Origin: Luminiphilus sp.
GTDB taxonomy: Bacteria > Pseudomonadota > Gammaproteobacteria > Pseudomonadales > Halieaceae
NCBI GenBank assembly: GCA_016779445.1
Contig: JADHNP010000016.1
Location: forward strand, 1-40,577
Length of the DNA stretch: 40,577 nt
Direction: 5' to 3'
Shown here one piece after another: positions 2,094-40,577 of this stretch. The notes beneath the pieces are model-generated. The model searched no databases, was not told the DNA's origin, and was given only the letters and a program-made list of their open reading frames with translations. Made by a program: the position numbers and the translations under genes. The number at the start of each line of letters is the position of its first letter. Position 1 is the first letter of the stretch.

Positions 2094-3814
2094 CGGCAGC
2101 ATCACCATTTGGGCTCTCGAAGTGGCGTTATGGCCTCGTGTGTCTGCTGCTTATGGGCCTGGCCGGTTTGCTGATCGGGCGACTGGTCATGCTGCAGCTT
2201 ACCGATAGTGGGAGTGGCGCGGTGTTTCTTCGAGAGCAAGGCGCGCTTCGCACTATCCGGACCGCAGAGATACCGGTTTATCGAGGGTTGATCGAAGACA
2301 GAAATGGCACGCCTCTGGCGGTGAGTTCGCCGGTGGTATCACTGTGGGCCAATCCGAAGCTACTGAAAGACAGTCTGCGATTGGGGGAGCTGGCTGATCT
2401 GCTTTCTATTGATCCCAATGCGCTCAAAGAGAAGTTGGCGTTTTATGGTGATAAACAGTTTATGTACCTCGCGCGGCACCAGACCCCGGAGTTTGCTCGA
2501 AAAATTTTGCAAGGCCAATTTCCGGGAGTAAAGGGTGAACGTGAATACCGTCGTTATTACCCCGCTGGAGAGGTGACGGCTCAAGTATTGGGTCTGACAA
2601 ATGTCGATGGGCGGGGTATCGCCGGTGTAGAAATGGCGTTTGAGGATTGGCTAAGGGGAGTGCCCGGAAAGAAGCGCTTTATTAAGGATCTCCATGGCGA
2701 GATGGTCAGGGATTTTGGTGTGATTGACGAGCCGCGTCCCGGAAAAACGTTAACTCTCAGCCTCGATTTGCGCTTGCAATATGTTCAACACCGCGAATTG
2801 CAGAGAGCCATGAAGGAGACGGGCGCGGTGGCTGGGTCAGCCGTCACGCTTGATGCCTGGACGGGGGAAGTGCTGGCAATCAGCAACTATCCCGTGTTTA
2901 ACCCAAATGCCCGGTCAACGCTTGATTACGGCAGCGCTCGGAATCGCGCCGTCACCGACGTATACGAGCCCGGATCAACTGTTAAGACGTTGACCCTCGT
3001 AGCGGCGCTAGAGAGCGGTCAGTTCAGCCTGGACACTTTGATTGATACCGCCCCAGGACGCATACGAGTGGGATCTAAGGTGCTCCATGATCCCCGTAAC
3101 TACGGTGAGATGACGCTCTCCAGAGTCATTGAAAAATCGAGTCAAGTGGGTGTTACCAAGCTCGCGCAAGCGGTGGGGCACGAAGCCATTCTCGACGTGC
3201 TCCATCGTTTTGGCTTGGGTGCGGATACGGGTACCGGCTTTCCCGGTGAGCGCGCTGGTGTGTTGCCAAACCACGCGCACTGGAGTGACATCGAAAAAGT
3301 TACGTTGGCATTTGGCTATGGTTTAAATGCGACGCCAATCCAGTTAGCGCGCGCCTATGCGGTTTTTGCCAACGAGGGTGTTCGACGCCCTCTTACCCTC
3401 CTCAAATACGATTCTGACAATACCCTCCGAGGGGATCGTGTCGTCACGGCTGAAATTGCGCGCGATGTGCTGACAGTCCTCGGACGGGTTACTAAACCCG
3501 GTGGTACCGCAACGCTCGCGCAAGTGCGAGGATTCTCGGTGGGGGGCAAAACCGGCACGGTTCACAAAGTCGGTGAGGGTGGCTATCTCGACGATCAGTA
3601 CGTGGCGTTATTTGTGGGGATCGCTCCAATCAACGAACCGCGATATGTCACTGCCATTTTGGTCGATCAGCCGCTTGGTGATCACTACGGTGGGGGGTTG
3701 GCGGCGGCGCCGGTTTATTCGCGGATCACCGAAGAGGTTTTGCGGATCAGGAATGCGCGTCCGGAGCGCTCTGATACCGGTGCGTTGCTGGCCGATGCGG
3801 GGGTAGCCCAGTGA
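2090..3814 (+). CDS. ftsI: Peptidoglycan D,D-transpeptidase FtsI (PBP3)
   Basis: FtsI cross-links septal peptidoglycan in the periplasm together with the glycosyltransferase FtsW. The 574-residue protein has one N-terminal membrane anchor (about 15-36), a PBP dimerisation/pedestal region and a C-terminal transpeptidase domain. The nucleophile motif STVK lies at S296-K299 and the KTG motif at K487-G489. The middle motif, normally SxN, reads SSQ (S350-Q352), so glutamine replaces the usual asparagine. Length and order match monofunctional class B PBPs. The gene overlaps ftsL by 4 nt and its TGA overlaps the murE ATG. Confidence 0.96.
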   Translation: MTAASPFGLSKWRYGLVCLLLMGLAGLLIGRLVMLQLTDSGSGAVFLREQGALRTIRTAEIPVYRGLIEDRNGTPLAVSSPVVSLWANPKLLKDSLRLGELADLLSIDPNALKEKLAFYGDKQFMYLARHQTPEFARKILQGQFPGVKGEREYRRYYPAGEVTAQVLGLTNVDGRGIAGVEMAFEDWLRGVPGKKRFIKDLHGEMVRDFGVIDEPRPGKTLTLSLDLRLQYVQHRELQRAMKETGAVAGSAVTLDAWTGEVLAISNYPVFNPNARSTLDYGSARNRAVTDVYEPGSTVKTLTLVAALESGQFSLDTLIDTAPGRIRVGSKVLHDPRNYGEMTLSRVIEKSSQVGVTKLAQAVGHEAILDVLHRFGLGADTGTGFPGERAGVLPNHAHWSDIEKVTLAFGYGLNATPIQLARAYAVFANEGVRRPLTLLKYDSDNTLRGDRVVTAEIARDVLTVLGRVTKPGGTATLAQVRGFSVGGKTGTVHKVGEGGYLDDQYVALFVGIAPINEPRYVTAILVDQPLGDHYGGGLAAAPVYSRITEEVLRIRNARPERSDTGALLADAGVAQ

Positions 3815-34469: not shown

Positions 34470-35297
34470 TCACGCCATTCGCATAGACAGGTCCAGCGCC
34501 CTAATATGTTTGGTCAAAGCGCCAATGGAGATGATGTCAACGCCGGTCTCGGCGATATCGACTAAAGTTGCTTCGGTCACATTGCCCGAGGCCTCAAGTT
34601 CGGCCTTGCCCGCTACGTGGATGACCGCCTCGCGCAGCGCCTTCAGGCTAAAGTTGTCGAGCATAATCCGATCTGCGCCCGCAGCCAGCGCGTGGTCGAG
34701 TTCAGCGCCAGTTTCTACCTCTACCTCAATCGGCTTGTCGGGGAATAACTGGCGGGCCGTTGTTACAGCCTCGCTGATGCCTCCCGCCGCCAAGATGTGA
34801 TTTTCCTTGATCAGGAATGCATCGTATAAACCGATTCGATGGTTGTGGCAGCCGCCACATCGTACGGCGTATTTTTGCGCGAGGCGCAGCCCCGGCACGG
34901 TTTTGCGTGTGTCTAATAAGCGCACTCTGGTATGAGCGACCCGCTGGGCGTATTGTTTAGCGAGAGTGGCGGTGCCCGAAAGCAACTGTAAAAAATTCAG
35001 TGCCGTGCGCTCTGCAGTGAGCAGAGTCCGTGCGGGTCCGCTGATCTTTGCCAACACGGCTTGGGACTTGATCCAATCACCGTCGTCGGCAAACCATGTG
35101 ACCTCGCAGTCGTTATTAACCTGTTGAAAGGCTTCGGTCGCAAAAGCGGACCCACACAACACGCCATTTTCACGGGTAATGATGGTGGCGGTGCCTTGAG
35201 TTTCAGCACTGATTAGAGCCGCGGTAATATCGCCCTCGCCAATATCCTCTGCGAGAGCACGCTGAACCTGCTCAGAAATATGTGTTGCACTGATCAT
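34470..35297 (-). CDS. nadC: Nicotinate-nucleotide pyrophosphorylase (carboxylating), NadC
   Basis: NadC converts quinolinate and PRPP to nicotinate mononucleotide in NAD synthesis. The 275-residue protein has ALAEDIGEGDIT at the N-terminus, ERTALNFLQLLSGTAT, DTRKTVPGLR, the RCGGCHNHR phosphate/quinolinate region and IEVEVET with the metal Glu. The ATG at 35297 is chosen since it matches the family N-terminus; the frame extends to 35360 but adds 21 unconserved residues. No ribosome-binding site is obvious. It is divergent from ampD with 93 nt between, the arrangement seen in other gammaproteobacteria. Confidence 0.95.
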   Translation of the reverse strand: MISATHISEQVQRALAEDIGEGDITAALISAETQGTATIITRENGVLCGSAFATEAFQQVNNDCEVTWFADDGDWIKSQAVLAKISGPARTLLTAERTALNFLQLLSGTATLAKQYAQRVAHTRVRLLDTRKTVPGLRLAQKYAVRCGGCHNHRIGLYDAFLIKENHILAAGGISEAVTTARQLFPDKPIEVEVETGAELDHALAAGADRIMLDNFSLKALREAVIHVAGKAELEASGNVTEATLVDIAETGVDIISIGALTKHIRALDLSMRMA

Positions 35298-35390
35298 GAT
35301 GTGGAGGTTAGCCGACCTGATGGGCAAAAGATATTGAAGTGCGGCCGCGCAATGAGGCATTAAAGCGTATGAGTAGGATAGGATATCGTC

Positions 35391-35974: not shown

Positions 35975-36787
35975 GTGTCGTATCTGGTTTTTATTGTCTC
36001 GGTAGGACTGCTGGCTCTTTTGGGTGCAGGGGGTCCTCTACATCGGGACACTTGGCTCGAGGCGTTAGATCGCCGCATTGATGCGATAGAAGTGGGCGTA
36101 TGGGTTTCGCTTTCCATGCGGATTTTCGCGCCTCTCTTCATGGCAGGCATTGCTTTGACCGTCACTCAGTTGTTTCTTGGGGACCTTGCTCAGGCGCTGA
36201 TCGGGGTCTTGTTGCTGTATTTTTCTTGGGGACGTGGTGATTACCCGACTGAATTGCAGCGGTTTCTCGCCCGTGCTCGCGTAGGCGATTCGGTGGGTGC
36301 AGGGGCGTTTCTTGATCTATCTAACAGCGAGCCAACCGCCACTGCCGCATGGGAGACAGAGGCGCTTGCGCATTTTACTTACCGCGGTTACGCCAGGTGG
36401 TTCCCACCCGTGCTCTATTTTTGTTTGCTGGGTCCCTTCGCCGCGGCGGCCTATCGGCTGGTTGTGCTGGCCAATGCGAGGTCTGGGGGGCGATTTGATG
36501 ACGCTCAGAACCTGCTCGAGTGGCTCCCTTCACGCTTGGTGATATTGACCTTCGCGGTGCTAGGGGATTTTGACAGTACCCGCAGGTTGGTAACCGCAAA
36601 TGAGGTTGATGGCGAAGTGTCGGTCAAGGCATTGTTGGCTGAAGGCGTTGAGCGGGCGTGGCATTTGGACGAGAGTGAGTTGCAGGGTGTCGATAAAACG
36701 ATTGCCGCTGTAGAAACCGCCGCCAAAGCCATTAATAGGAGCTGTGCAGTGTGGGTTATCCTGATCTCACTGGCCGCGCTGCTCTAA
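35975..36787 (+). CDS. ampE: AmpE-like inner-membrane protein
   Basis: The 270-residue protein has about four hydrophobic segments (roughly residues 2-20, 50-90 as two spans, 145-170 and the last 20) and the YFCLLGPFAAAAYRLVVL motif common to AmpE and distant CobD/CbiB relatives. AmpE has been proposed as a signalling partner of AmpD, but its biochemical role is not established. The GTG start lies 14 nt after ampD. The gene ends 4 nt from the convergent panE-like gene. Confidence 0.87.
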   Translation: MSYLVFIVSVGLLALLGAGGPLHRDTWLEALDRRIDAIEVGVWVSLSMRIFAPLFMAGIALTVTQLFLGDLAQALIGVLLLYFSWGRGDYPTELQRFLARARVGDSVGAGAFLDLSNSEPTATAAWETEALAHFTYRGYARWFPPVLYFCLLGPFAAAAYRLVVLANARSGGRFDDAQNLLEWLPSRLVILTFAVLGDFDSTRRLVTANEVDGEVSVKALLAEGVERAWHLDESELQGVDKTIAAVETAAKAINRSCAVWVILISLAALL

Positions 36788-36791
36788 ATGA

Positions 36792-37724
36792 CTAGCCCCC
36801 TGATACTGGAGTGGATGAAAGCTCCCTGTCCGCATGCAAAATGGTTTTGTAGAGCGAACTGAGCAGGGGCGTTGCGGGTGGATCGAAGCACAGGTGGTGG
36901 AGCAGCCAGCCGACGATGGACTCGATTTCCGTCTGATGACCGCGATCCATATCGACACGCATTGACGAGTGATTTTCTGCGGTAGCCAGACACACTAATC
37001 GGACCTGATCGGGGAGCGCATTCGCCAATTCCAGTTTTCCTGCAGCAGTCAGCAAGCTTTGGACTTCGGCTGTAATTTGCTCTGTTTGATCCAGAAATTG
37101 TGGACTGAACAAATCGCCATTAGCGACCCGATGTAATCCCGTGAGAGGGTTGATTACTGCATTAAGCGCCACTTTTGCGAGAAGCACTGGGAGAATGTCG
37201 TCGGTCCAGAGAAATGCCGGTACGCCCTTTTTCCAAACTGGCAGCCAATCTGGCGCGAAAGGGTGTGGGCGCGAATTGCCCAGATAGGTTGCACCGTTAC
37301 CCGATATCTGTCTCGTTCCCGCTGTGGTTAAACGACATCCTGCCGTGGTGGAACCCAGAACCAACGTCGCGCCATTGAGGTAGTGCTCGATCAACTCGGC
37401 GTGGCCCATGCCGTTACACATTATGACGACTGTGCTGTGTTTTGAGAGTCGATGCGCGACGGACGCGATTGCCGGCTCGATCGCCCAAGATTTGGTACAC
37501 ACCAATAGGTGCTCAATTTCCTGAGCCTCACAGATCCTTTGCGAGGGGAAGGTATGGCTACCCACCACATCGCCGCTGAGATTGATGGTTAAGTCGGCAG
37601 GCACCGGGTTGCTGCCGTGGTCACCGCGATCGAGTAGGGTCACTAAAGCCCCCCCCAATTGGAGTCGGCATGCAAAGAGGCCTCCAATGGCGCCGACGCC
37701 TAGTACATGCCAGCTAGAGGTCAT
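36792..37724 (-). CDS. panE: 2-dehydropantoate 2-reductase (PanE/ApbA family)
   Basis: PanE reduces ketopantoate to pantoate with NADPH on the way to coenzyme A. The 310-residue protein has the Rossmann motif GVGAIGG (9-15), the catalytic lysine K184 in LLAKVALNAVINPLTGL and the Glu pair in RGHQTEIESIVGWLL (E266/E268). In Salmonella the same gene was first named apbA because its loss affects pyrimidine/thiamin synthesis, which is notable as it closes a putative thiamin operon here. The ATG overlaps the kinase stop by 4 nt, so it is co-translated with it. Confidence 0.9.
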   Translation of the reverse strand: MTSSWHVLGVGAIGGLFACRLQLGGALVTLLDRGDHGSNPVPADLTINLSGDVVGSHTFPSQRICEAQEIEHLLVCTKSWAIEPAIASVAHRLSKHSTVVIMCNGMGHAELIEHYLNGATLVLGSTTAGCRLTTAGTRQISGNGATYLGNSRPHPFAPDWLPVWKKGVPAFLWTDDILPVLLAKVALNAVINPLTGLHRVANGDLFSPQFLDQTEQITAEVQSLLTAAGKLELANALPDQVRLVCLATAENHSSMRVDMDRGHQTEIESIVGWLLHHLCFDPPATPLLSSLYKTILHADRELSSTPVSGG

Positions 37725-38542
37725 ATCGCTTTGTTCTGCGCAGGCCAGAGTGAGGCCTCGATCAAAGAGTCAGTATCAAAGCACTGTTGCCATAGCAGGG
37801 TGCACAATCGAGCAATGAGTTTACCCGCAGCGACTAGATCACTGTCCGGTTGCTCATCAAAAACCGCACTCAGAAAAGCGTCCTGTGACTCGAGTGGCAG
37901 CGGTTCCATGGCAATAGCGACATCAAAGTAGCGACTCCCCATCGCGGCGTATTCCCAGTCAATCGCAACCAATTGCTCCTGTTTGTATAGAAGATTACCC
38001 GCTGTCAGATCATTGTGACAGAGTCGAGGCGTGTCGTGTTCCAGGCACCGCAGAGCTTGTGTTACGCGATGGTCGTCGACAATTAATTGCCACTTTGGCT
38101 TTGTCACCGCGGGCACGCGTTGCAAGTAATCGTTTATCACCTGATACAAGTCAAGCCGGTAAGCGGTTTTGGGTAATTGATGGATGGCGCGGGCTAGGGC
38201 TCCCAGTTTCTGGGCGCAAATGGGTTTTTCTTCAGGACAAAGTCGTTCACAAACGACGATTTCTTCTGCGTTGGCGACATAGGCTATCTGGGGTGCCAGT
38301 CCGCGATTTGCTGCGTGAGTCCAAGCGGCGATTTCTCTTGCAAAGCCTCCTGCCACTGTACTTGTGGATCGGTGGCGCAATCGGGCGCACAGAGCGGGAT
38401 TGTTAGCCAGAGTGTAGAGTCGGTGCCCACTGCCCTCGGCCCACACAGCCCCTAGCACTGGTATGGCTTCCAGTGGCGGTGTTAGGTCCCACTGGCGCCA
38501 CATGGAAAGAACGGCGGTTAGCTGATCTGTTGCTGCTGCCAT
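37721..38542 (-). CDS. Phosphotransferase of the APH/choline-kinase fold, ThiK-like
   Basis: The 273-residue protein has the catalytic loop HNDLTAGN (H176, D178, N183) and the metal-binding IDWEYA (D195), the form seen in thiamin kinase (ThiK) and choline kinases. Its partners (a YkoF-like domain and a PnuC-family permease) favour thiamin phosphorylation, trapping the vitamin after uptake. Choline or another small alcohol remains possible. The ATG at 38542 lies 25 nt inside the permease gene; the frame opens further upstream, and an ATG at 38503 after the permease stop is an alternative. None has a clear ribosome-binding site. Confidence 0.75.
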   Translation of the reverse strand: MAAATDQLTAVLSMWRQWDLTPPLEAIPVLGAVWAEGSGHRLYTLANNPALCARLRHRSTSTVAGGFAREIAAWTHAANRGLAPQIAYVANAEEIVVCERLCPEEKPICAQKLGALARAIHQLPKTAYRLDLYQVINDYLQRVPAVTKPKWQLIVDDHRVTQALRCLEHDTPRLCHNDLTAGNLLYKQEQLVAIDWEYAAMGSRYFDVAIAMEPLPLESQDAFLSAVFDEQPDSDLVAAGKLIARLCTLLWQQCFDTDSLIEASLWPAQNKAI

Positions 38543-39084
38543 TGCGCGCGCCAAGTGCGGTAGCCGAAAGCAGCTAGCACGATGTAACCGGTAAATAATG
38601 CTGCGGTCAGTGATAGGTCTCGTGACAGGTAAAGCCATACAGACGCCATATCAATAACTATCCAGTAGAGCCAGTTCTCAAGAATTTTCTGTGTGACCAG
38701 CCAGGTAGCGAGCAGTGCCGAAACTGTCGTGGCAGCGTCGACAAACGGGGCTGCCGCATCGGTCCAGCGCATCATCAGCGTACCCAGTAGCAGGGTCAGC
38801 GAGACCAGAACACTGAAGGCCAGCAGGTGGTATCGCCACGGCCAAGTTCGGATGGATCGCTCTGGGGTAGTATGAGTGCCGCGCCAGGCAAACCAGCCAT
38901 AGACAGCCATCCCGATATAAAAGGTCTGTAACACCGCCTCCAAATAAAGCTGAACTTGCCAAAAAATATAGATGTACAGAAACGCACTGTTGATCGAGGC
39001 GATCCAACACCATCGATTTTGATAAATAGCGAGTACGACATAGGATAGCGCCAATGCGACTGCGCAGCTCTCCGTCCAACTCAT
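38518..39084 (-). CDS. pnuT: PnuC-family vitamin permease (putative thiamin transporter PnuT)
   Basis: The 188-residue protein has about seven membrane segments and the family pattern: NRWCWIASINSAFLYIYIFW, LYLEAVLQTFYIGMAVYGW and ENWLYWIVIDMASVWLYLSRDL. PnuC proteins move nicotinamide riboside by facilitated diffusion; the PnuT branch carries thiamin and relies on a kinase to trap it. The neighbouring kinase and YkoF-like gene point to the thiamin branch, but specificity residues are not decisive by eye. The ATG at 39084 starts 1 nt after the upstream stop; an earlier frame to 39207 lies inside that gene and is rejected. Confidence 0.85.
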   Translation of the reverse strand: MSWTESCAVALALSYVVLAIYQNRWCWIASINSAFLYIYIFWQVQLYLEAVLQTFYIGMAVYGWFAWRGTHTTPERSIRTWPWRYHLLAFSVLVSLTLLLGTLMMRWTDAAAPFVDAATTVSALLATWLVTQKILENWLYWIVIDMASVWLYLSRDLSLTAALFTGYIVLAAFGYRTWRAQWQQQQIS

Positions 39085-39085
39085 T

Positions 39086-39349
39086 TCAGTCGACGGGTCC
39101 AATGTCGGCAAAGTGCTCGGGTATGAATTTAGCGACCAGCACTTGACGCCCAAACTGCGCGTGGCTGGCTCTGAGCGCGTGCTGGATTGCAGCAAACACC
39201 GCCTCATCCTCCCCGCTTAACTGCGTGCTCATAGAGTTGGTGACTGCGACAACATCCTGGCCCTCGAGGAGCTTCTCGATAAAGGCGTGCACCGCAATCT
39301 TAAATTCCTCTCTCAAGGGGTAGAGGCTGAGCTCGGCTGTGAGTTTCAT
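39086..39349 (-). CDS. Single-domain YkoF-like thiamin/HMP-binding protein
   Basis: This 87-residue cytosolic protein (no signal peptide) resembles one repeat of YkoF, a Bacillus protein with tandem domains that bind thiamin and hydroxymethylpyrimidine. The pattern ELSLYPL at the start, then VVAVTNSMSTQLSGEDEAVFAAI, is the recognisable core of this ferredoxin-like fold. It may bind or hand over thiamin between permease and kinase, perhaps as a dimer mimicking the YkoF tandem. The ATG overlaps the receptor stop (ATGA) and the permease begins 1 nt after its stop. The related MTH1187 family is the main alternative. Confidence 0.72.
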   Translation of the reverse strand: MKLTAELSLYPLREEFKIAVHAFIEKLLEGQDVVAVTNSMSTQLSGEDEAVFAAIQHALRASHAQFGRQVLVAKFIPEHFADIGPVD

Positions 39350-40577
39350 TGATGTCCCTCAAAAAGTTCGTAGCGGATTGTCACGCCAACAACGCGTGGC
39401 TCGCCGTATTGACGATACGGCTCAACAGTGTACTGCTTGCGGGGGTCGTTGCCGAAGGTACCAAAGCCCCGCGTGTACGTATCCCGATCGGTCAGGTTGC
39501 GCCCCCACAATGTCCATTGCCAGCGTCCTCTCCCACCGGAGATGCTGGCGTTGAGTTGATGTATCTCGTCGTTGGCGACCTCATGACGATCTGAGAAAAA
39601 ATAACGATCACTGCCGGCTAACTCGAGCTGCACTGCGGCCAGCGGGTGGATGTCCCAGCGCGCCCCGAGTGAATACTGCCAAGAGGGGGACTGAGGTTGT
39701 TCACGGCCCGATAAATTCTCGCCCGTGGCGCTCACGTACTCATCGAATTGAGCATCGAGTATTCCCAAATTCAGTTGCCAGTGCCACTCTTCATTGGGCT
39801 GCCACCGCGCCTCCCATTCCAATCCGCGATGATGCCCGGCTGCTGCGTTATCGGTGTAATCGATAAATGCGGTACTGCCGTCATTACGAGGAATGACAAC
39901 CGACCCTCTGACCTGCTGATCATCTCTTTCCATTGCAAATATCGCCAGACGAGATTGAAGATTGATTTCCGGCCAGAAGCCTTGCCAACCCCATTCAAGA
40001 CTGATTAGCGTTTCTTCATCGAAGATACTGAACCCGCTGACACGGTTTTGATCGAGGTCAGGCAGCGCTTCAATCGAAGCCAGCAAGCCGGCATTGGCGC
40101 CGCCCGCTCGCGCGCCGCGAGAGAGGGTAAGGTAGGTTTGTTGTCCGCGCTGATAGGTCCAGGTGAGACCGGTACGTCCCGTCCAGTAGTCATGATCAAA
40201 GGGCGTATTGACCGCGGCGCTATCGCGGTAGTGGCTCTCGCGTCTTTCGAGTCGCGCCCCGATAAAACCAGAGAGAGTGTCCGTAAAAGCACGGTTTACC
40301 TCTGCAAAAATTGCGCCGGTGTCTGTTTCTATCTTGCTTGAGAACGGTCCAGGTAAGTAGCTGTAGTCGCGGGTTAACGTTTCTCGCTGATGTCTCAAAA
40401 ACGTGCCTAATATCCATGCGGTTCGTCCACCGCTAAGGGGTTGAACACGCCATTCCAGACTTGTCATTGTTCTGTCGCGACGATATTCATCAAATGATTG
40501 GTATTCCCAGCCCGGTGCGATGCCAACAAAACTCCAGTCCTCGTCGTAGCTATAAGTGGTCTCGGTGTCCGCATGGC
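39346..40577 (-). CDS. TonB-dependent outer-membrane receptor, C-terminal part
   Basis: The frame is open to the window edge and gives 410 codons with no start, so the signal peptide and plug domain lie outside. Repeated amphipathic beta-strand patterns with aromatic-rich turns (RTGLTWTYQRGQQTYLTLS, GARAGGANAGL, LEWEARWQPNEEWHWQLNLG, NLTDRDTYTRGFG) and the end GVTIRYELFEGHQ are those of a TonB-dependent barrel. Five extra residues follow the usual final aromatic strand. Placement ahead of thiamin-type genes suggests thiamin or a precursor as ligand, rather than a siderophore. Methionine codons such as 40465-40467 are internal. Confidence 0.88.
   Translation of the reverse strand, partial: HADTETTYSYDEDWSFVGIAPGWEYQSFDEYRRDRTMTSLEWRVQPLSGGRTAWILGTFLRHQRETLTRDYSYLPGPFSSKIETDTGAIFAEVNRAFTDTLSGFIGARLERRESHYRDSAAVNTPFDHDYWTGRTGLTWTYQRGQQTYLTLSRGARAGGANAGLLASIEALPDLDQNRVSGFSIFDEETLISLEWGWQGFWPEINLQSRLAIFAMERDDQQVRGSVVIPRNDGSTAFIDYTDNAAAGHHRGLEWEARWQPNEEWHWQLNLGILDAQFDEYVSATGENLSGREQPQSPSWQYSLGARWDIHPLAAVQLELAGSDRYFFSDRHEVANDEIHQLNASISGGRGRWQWTLWGRNLTDRDTYTRGFGTFGNDPRKQYTVEPYRQYGEPRVVGVTIRYELFEGHQ

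Follow-up and report, generated by a model that had tools for sequence, protein, structure and literature searches.

The window analysed here, a 40577-base stretch that makes up one whole contig (C4) of a Luminiphilus sp. genome (2.47 Mb, 132 contigs, 86.8% complete), ends in five minus-strand genes for a TonB-dependent receptor, a small YkoF-like protein, a PnuC-family permease, a kinase and the ketopantoate reductase PanE (Table 1). Together they very probably represent a thiamin (vitamin B1) uptake operon, controlled by a thiamin pyrophosphate (TPP) riboswitch, of a marine Halieaceae bacterium (OM60/NOR5 clade) that is auxotrophic for thiamin. The genes are tightly packed. An ATGA (−4 nt) joins the receptor and small-protein genes, a single nucleotide separates the latter from the permease gene, the permease and kinase genes overlap by 25 nt, and the PanE start lies over the kinase stop in another ATGA (−4 nt). 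A first-pass annotation, made from the letters alone, had called these junctions 'ATGA or closer', which is a fair summary; hidden Markov model searches assigned the families. The arrangement is not a product of chance: the first four genes recurred as a core in 59 of the 80 loci retained from a wider PnuC search, and PanE followed the kinase in all 30 same-genus loci readable beyond the kinase (29 relatives and the window). The gene order is conserved among relatives.

An Rfam scan of the window detected no RNA family, and no TPP riboswitch, at the gathering threshold. The receptor frame is still open where the window, and with it the contig, ends, and the receptor's 5' part was located on another contig, C7. 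C7 begins inside the same receptor gene: window positions 39975-40577 correspond to G000:C7:1-603, an overlap of 603 nt with 11 mismatches (98.2% identity) and two changed residues. These mismatches suggest that the assembly broke on strain variation and may hold a mixture of strains. A whole-genome Rfam search identified a TPP riboswitch at C7:1580-1680 on the minus strand (69.7 bits; gathering score, 54.3), the sole one found in the genome. It lies directly before the receptor gene, about 50 nt ahead of the likely start, so that the upstream riboswitch scan proposed by the first-pass annotation came out in its favour. The gene order does not depend on C4 and C7 alone, because a single contig of a relative (L034, Halieaceae bacterium CPC75 9680; PnuC 96% identical) carries the riboswitch (3430-3529) followed by the receptor, YkoF-like, PnuC, kinase and PanE genes. 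When an expression platform was sought, the aptamer with its leader folded no better than shuffled sequences, and we therefore make no claim for the mechanism of control. A search for internal promoters and terminators was uninformative, with two promoter-like sites and three terminators in 36700-40577 against 2.3 and 3.2 in shuffles.

To follow the operon through the genus, we used 58 genomes: 37 of the same genus, this one included, and 21 outgroups of the order. The TPP riboswitch was present, in one copy each, in 35 of the 37 genus genomes (none was found in G013 and G029), and in all 35 a receptor of this type came immediately after it; 28 of these adjacencies were seen in one scan, and 7 more were obtained by cross-comparing separate results, those on the riboswitch and the gene order among them. 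PnuC itself was found in 33/37 genus genomes and 6/21 outgroups.

The thiamin biosynthesis genes pointed in the same direction. ThiC was found in none of the 37 genus genomes, against 15 of the 21 outgroups. Thiamin pyrophosphokinase (TPK) was found in none of the 58 genomes, although of 14 genomes searched as controls, 7 gave a match. No full-length ThiG was detected in the genus. Its genomes held partial matches, single ones of at most 25.4 bits (18.9 bits for the best in this genome); these reached the cut-off of 23 in G005, G006, G021 and G028, and that of G030 came to 34.1 with its neighbours. The full ThiG of the 16 outgroups having one scored 297-385 bits. ThiE was not found over its cut-off in 36/37 genus genomes, with no match at all in this genome and matches under the cut-off in G026 and G034. 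The one match over the cut-off, in G017, sits in a 325-aa frame that resembles second matches beside ThiE in outgroups, and is probably a fused MutT-type protein. ThiL exceeded its cut-off in 55/58 genomes, reaching 293.5 bits here at C88:54754-55662. Because ThiC, full ThiG, a convincing ThiE and TPK were not found and ThiL was kept, cells of the genus can probably use neither hydroxymethylpyrimidine (HMP) nor thiazole, and would need thiamin together with an enzyme forming thiamin monophosphate (TMP) (ThiD and ThiN were not searched). Among the outgroups, ThiC was found in 0/5 genomes with a PnuT-like PnuC (E under 1e-30, a line set after the hits were seen) versus 15/16 of the rest (Fisher P 0.0003, uncorrected for kinship; 0.0017 when the distant PnuC copy of G056 was counted). 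Four bacteriochlorophyll a-containing Halieaceae strains in culture, Luminiphilus syltensis among them, are reported to have all required thiamin (PMC3679898).

We then considered the last gene of the operon. PanE is a lineage-specific addition to the core. At the operon end it is taken to be either a passenger or a co-regulated gene, and not an enzyme of thiamin salvage. The first-pass annotation had counted it among the salvage genes; it proved instead to be the only gene found in the genome that matches ketopantoate reductase over its full length, residues 4-277 of its 310 align with a solved enzyme of the same name, and PanB is also present (33/37 genus genomes). Only G030 carries a second full-length ketopantoate reductase in the genus. 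The name 'ApbA' would make PanE a thiamin enzyme, and this candidate was rejected: the Salmonella connection between PanE and thiamin is described as going via coenzyme A (CoA) and ThiC (PMC5965847), and it could not apply if ThiC, which was not found here, is absent.

The kinase and PanE genes overlap by 1-8 nt in 29 of the 30 same-genus loci. The exception is L146 (G036), whose PanE is spread over two frames with no start that could be assigned; a PanE split into two overlapping frames was also seen in L073, and either sequencing error or gene decay could produce it. In the PanE tree, the 41 operonic rows all lay to one side of a branch supported at 100/99, and their nearest neighbours were PanE of some outgroups; the joining of panE to the thiamin genes probably happened once. 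A record labelled Luminiphilus (L049) stood next to G028 in this tree, which points to Luminiphilus as the genus. An older neighbourhood of panE is suggested by the outgroup G039, whose panE (L165 = G039:C10:52500-56000) stands beside ampE/ampD as in the window, with a divergent gene upstream and the thiamin operon on another contig. In the window, the PanE 3' end is 4 nt from a convergent AmpE-like gene (37.1 of 238 with the AmpE model). The ampDE neighbourhood occurred in 1 of 16 non-operonic PanE regions fetched, from 15 outgroup genomes plus the second copy of G030, each with about 1 kb of flanking DNA (a shorter stretch in G030).

It is presumed that panE is co-transcribed with the thiamin genes, and an addition compatible with the uptake operon is that it has a functional part in it: the only copy of panE would be expressed mainly from the TPP-riboswitch transcript, and TPP status would set the supply of pantothenate and CoA. 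We regard this as possible but somewhat doubtful. The near-constant overlap, the single branch of operonic PanE, the one full-length enzyme in a genome with PanB and the lack of excess promoter-like sites are all consistent with it, and TPP and CoA both serve pyruvate and 2-oxoglutarate dehydrogenase. However, the arrangement in G039 indicates that a chance rearrangement may have brought panE to the operon, the connection known from Salmonella depends on ThiC, and IlvC may replace PanE. More tentative still is a combined proposal, in which the genus's only ketopantoate reductase gene is overlap-joined to the thiamin operon so that B1 status sets pantothenate and CoA, and the YkoF-like protein serves as a sink in the cytosol, taking thiamin from the passive permease and handing it on to the kinase.

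The substrate of the receptor and of the permease is predicted to be thiamin. The full-length receptor of L034 stayed under the siderophore and B12 cut-offs (TIGR01783, 121 of 223.5; TIGR01779, 41 of 599.7), and the window's partial receptor reached no equivalog or subfamily cut-off, an outcome in favour of the first-pass reading. Among the profiles that the first-pass annotation had named, PF07615, PF04973 and PF01636 matched and PF01910 (Thiamine_BP) fell short: the small protein passed PF07615 (YkoF family) marginally (cut-off 21) and gave 22.4 bits with PF01910, under the cut-off of 24.9. At E 0.01, 38 of 50 scanned sequences matched PF07615 and 41 of 50 matched PF01910. Its fold agrees with Thiamine_BP in a structure comparison (VIA on Foldseek's top 1000, pdb library), and it is a predicted thiamin-binding protein. 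The permease exceeded the cut-off of TIGR01528, the model of the nicotinamide riboside (NR) transporter PnuC (66.9 versus 42.45). In view of its TPP riboswitch context, we infer that PnuT and PnuC are not told apart by this model. A PnuC tree of 87 rows placed the window's PnuC and the Shewanella riboswitch-linked PnuC in one 80-row set (support 98/97), with G056, G045 and five Bacteroidota outside it and no proven NR transporter included.

The TIGR01528 score, together with nadC at 34470-35360 in the window, would fit NR salvage, in which PnuC imports NR, the kinase phosphorylates it and the receptor brings in NR or a precursor. This is very unlikely, as the TPP riboswitch precedes the operon in every genus genome where it was found, ThiC is lacking from all five outgroups that have a PnuC of this type, the matches of the small protein are to families that bind thiamin, the kinase is of the APH and not of the NadR type, and ampDE, on the other strand, lies between nadC and the operon. 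Import of a thiamin precursor, HMP or thiazole, from which the cell would complete thiamin, is less likely again: YkoF is a thiamin/HMP-binding protein by the title of Devedjiev 2004 and precursor transporters are also reported under TPP riboswitches (PMC3766115), but the genus has no full-length ThiG, and HMP and thiazole could probably not be joined without the ThiE missing above (ThiN being outside the searches). Of the 'thiamin or HMP' salvage first proposed, the thiamin reading is supported and the HMP reading unlikely.

Family scores of the kinase were taken on a longer, 305-aa reading. Its score with the ThiK model TIGR02721 was 52.5 bits, far below the cut-off of 299.45, and an identity as ThiK by family model was rejected; the earlier description as 'ThiK-like' stays a prediction. 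The kinase has the aminoglycoside phosphotransferase (APH) fold, matched by PF01636 (Table 1). A second frame in the genome, on C103, matched TIGR02721 with 45.2 bits, and at 1e-5 some match occurred in 45/58 genomes, none over the cut-off. The kinase sequence has visible HND and DWE motifs. Thiamin-phosphorylating activity is predicted from the operon position and from the need for a TMP-forming step, with no TPK found and ThiL present.

On the thiamin uptake reading, low TPP would let the riboswitch permit expression of the transcript. The receptor would bring scarce thiamin across the outer membrane with TonB energy, and the PnuT-type permease would allow its facilitated diffusion across the inner membrane. 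In the cytosol, the YkoF-like protein may hold the incoming thiamin, and the kinase would convert it to TMP, which should not exit via PnuT. ThiL, encoded elsewhere, would then yield TPP.

Table 1. Genes of the predicted thiamin uptake operon and their positions in the window.
Feature	Position	Strand	Model match	Predicted role
TonB-dependent receptor, 3' part only	39346-40575	minus	PF00593 77 bits, E 2.9e-21	Outer-membrane thiamin receptor, OMthi type (predicted)
Single-domain YkoF/UPF0045-type protein, 87 aa	39086-39349	minus	PF07615 21.5 bits	Cytosolic thiamin-binding protein (predicted)
PnuC-family permease, 188 aa	38518-39084	minus	PF04973 E 5.2e-48	Thiamin facilitator PnuT (predicted)
APH/choline-kinase-fold kinase, 273 aa from ATG at 38542	37721-38542	minus	PF01636 48.9 bits, E 9.5e-13	Thiamin kinase, thiamin to TMP (predicted)
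PanE/ApbA ketopantoate reductase	36792-37724	minus	TIGR00745 178.7 (cut-off 141.35)	

To see how far the core extends, we searched named genomes with PnuC and kept the best 80 of 425 candidate stretches, a set that overlaps the genus set (L041 is a contig of G019). The loci with the four-gene core, in one of which the receptor lies 3.4 kb away (L067), were all from Gammaproteobacteria or unspecified Proteobacteria. The YkoF-like gene alone was missing from the core in 4/80 loci, a receptor and PnuC without the kinase occurred in 5/80 (one of them, L112, with a YkoF-like gene), and 12/80 had no visible receptor, several of these on short contigs. PanE followed in 13/80 loci, 10 labelled Halieaceae or Luminiphilus and the other three Alteromonadaceae, Gammaproteobacteria and Proteobacteria. 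The first-pass annotation had not recognised the five-gene combination; its core is widespread, and what is peculiar to the lineage is the panE linkage.

A model trained on 20 of the TPP riboswitches, which gives rough E-values and for which L041, L047 and L048 are training contigs, produced 65 matches in 63/80 loci. In 60/80, a match preceded both the receptor and PnuC and shared their strand, and in 3/80 (L060, L091 and L098) matches occurred only downstream of PnuC; 17/80 had no match. Four loci (L065, L084, L094 and L111) combined a TPP riboswitch match with a receptor and PnuC, and neither an APH kinase nor a YkoF-like gene was detected in them. Two loci hold, besides the riboswitch match that precedes the receptor, another one resembling a TPP riboswitch, at L050:7381-7493 (+) and L108:1591-1702 (-). 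In two Flavobacteriales loci (L039:3147-4511 and L098:6488-7149), PnuC precedes a NadR-type P-loop kinase domain of 176-181 aa, which scored 113 and 67 bits with TIGR01526, below the cut-off of 341. L039 has a YkoF-like gene ahead of PnuC, and in L098 the kinase is closely followed by a TPP riboswitch match. The NadR-type domain is possibly a different thiamin kinase, or half of an NR salvage pair.

The operon offers an account of how marine bacteria apparently unable to make B1 may acquire it across two membranes, with all proposed steps but ThiL in one operon. Three of its proteins, all with predicted functions, stand out: the TonB receptor for thiamin, the thiamin kinase that the ThiK model does not cover, and the YkoF-type binding protein, whose partner is a permease working by facilitated diffusion. 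Should panE indeed follow the riboswitch, two cofactor supplies would be tied by gene position.

The four-gene core is of a known kind, and parts of it have been predicted before in Shewanella. In S. oneidensis, a TPP riboswitch precedes the TonB receptor gene SO2715 (PMC2659441), and SO2713, a PnuC-family permease, is named as the predicted thiamin transporter pnuT (PMC5955497); the operon shares these three elements and differs in that thiC is also present in S. oneidensis (PMC2659441). Putative thiamin TonB transporters have been described as co-located with PnuT (PMC2771747), and a citation in PMC7749635 gives the Shewanella woodyi PnuT as a transporter of thiamin. In Shewanella sp. SR44-3 (L109), the riboswitch-receptor-YkoF-PnuC-kinase order is the same, but no panE comes after the kinase, and the genes are 35-108 nt apart, against −25 to +1 here. 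The Bacteroides OMthi-pnuT-tnr3 locus likewise combines a TPP riboswitch, an outer-membrane receptor, PnuT and a thiamin-phosphorylating enzyme (PMC5613172), and in a biosynthesis mutant of B. thetaiotaomicron, deletion of pnuT or OMthi is reported to have raised the thiamin need about tenfold. It differs in that Tnr3 pyrophosphorylates thiamin, whereas an APH-type kinase and ThiL would share the task here; in addition, B. thetaiotaomicron synthesises its own thiamin, and no YkoF-like gene was noted in what is described of that locus (PMC5613172).

The kinase resembles E. coli ThiK (YcfN) as an APH-fold kinase in a genome with ThiL and without TPK (E. coli was among the control genomes), but it is not an orthologue by the family model. 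YkoF of B. subtilis accompanies the YkoEDC transporter. The small protein has its closest known counterparts in YkoF and the UPF0045/MTH1187/TM0486 thiamin-binding family, is single-domain like UPF0045, and differs from B. subtilis YkoF in sitting in a TonB-PnuT operon. The exact five-gene set was not met among the literature matches listed, from a search that left most subscription journals outside. Compared with these systems, what is new here is the panE linkage and perhaps the small protein.

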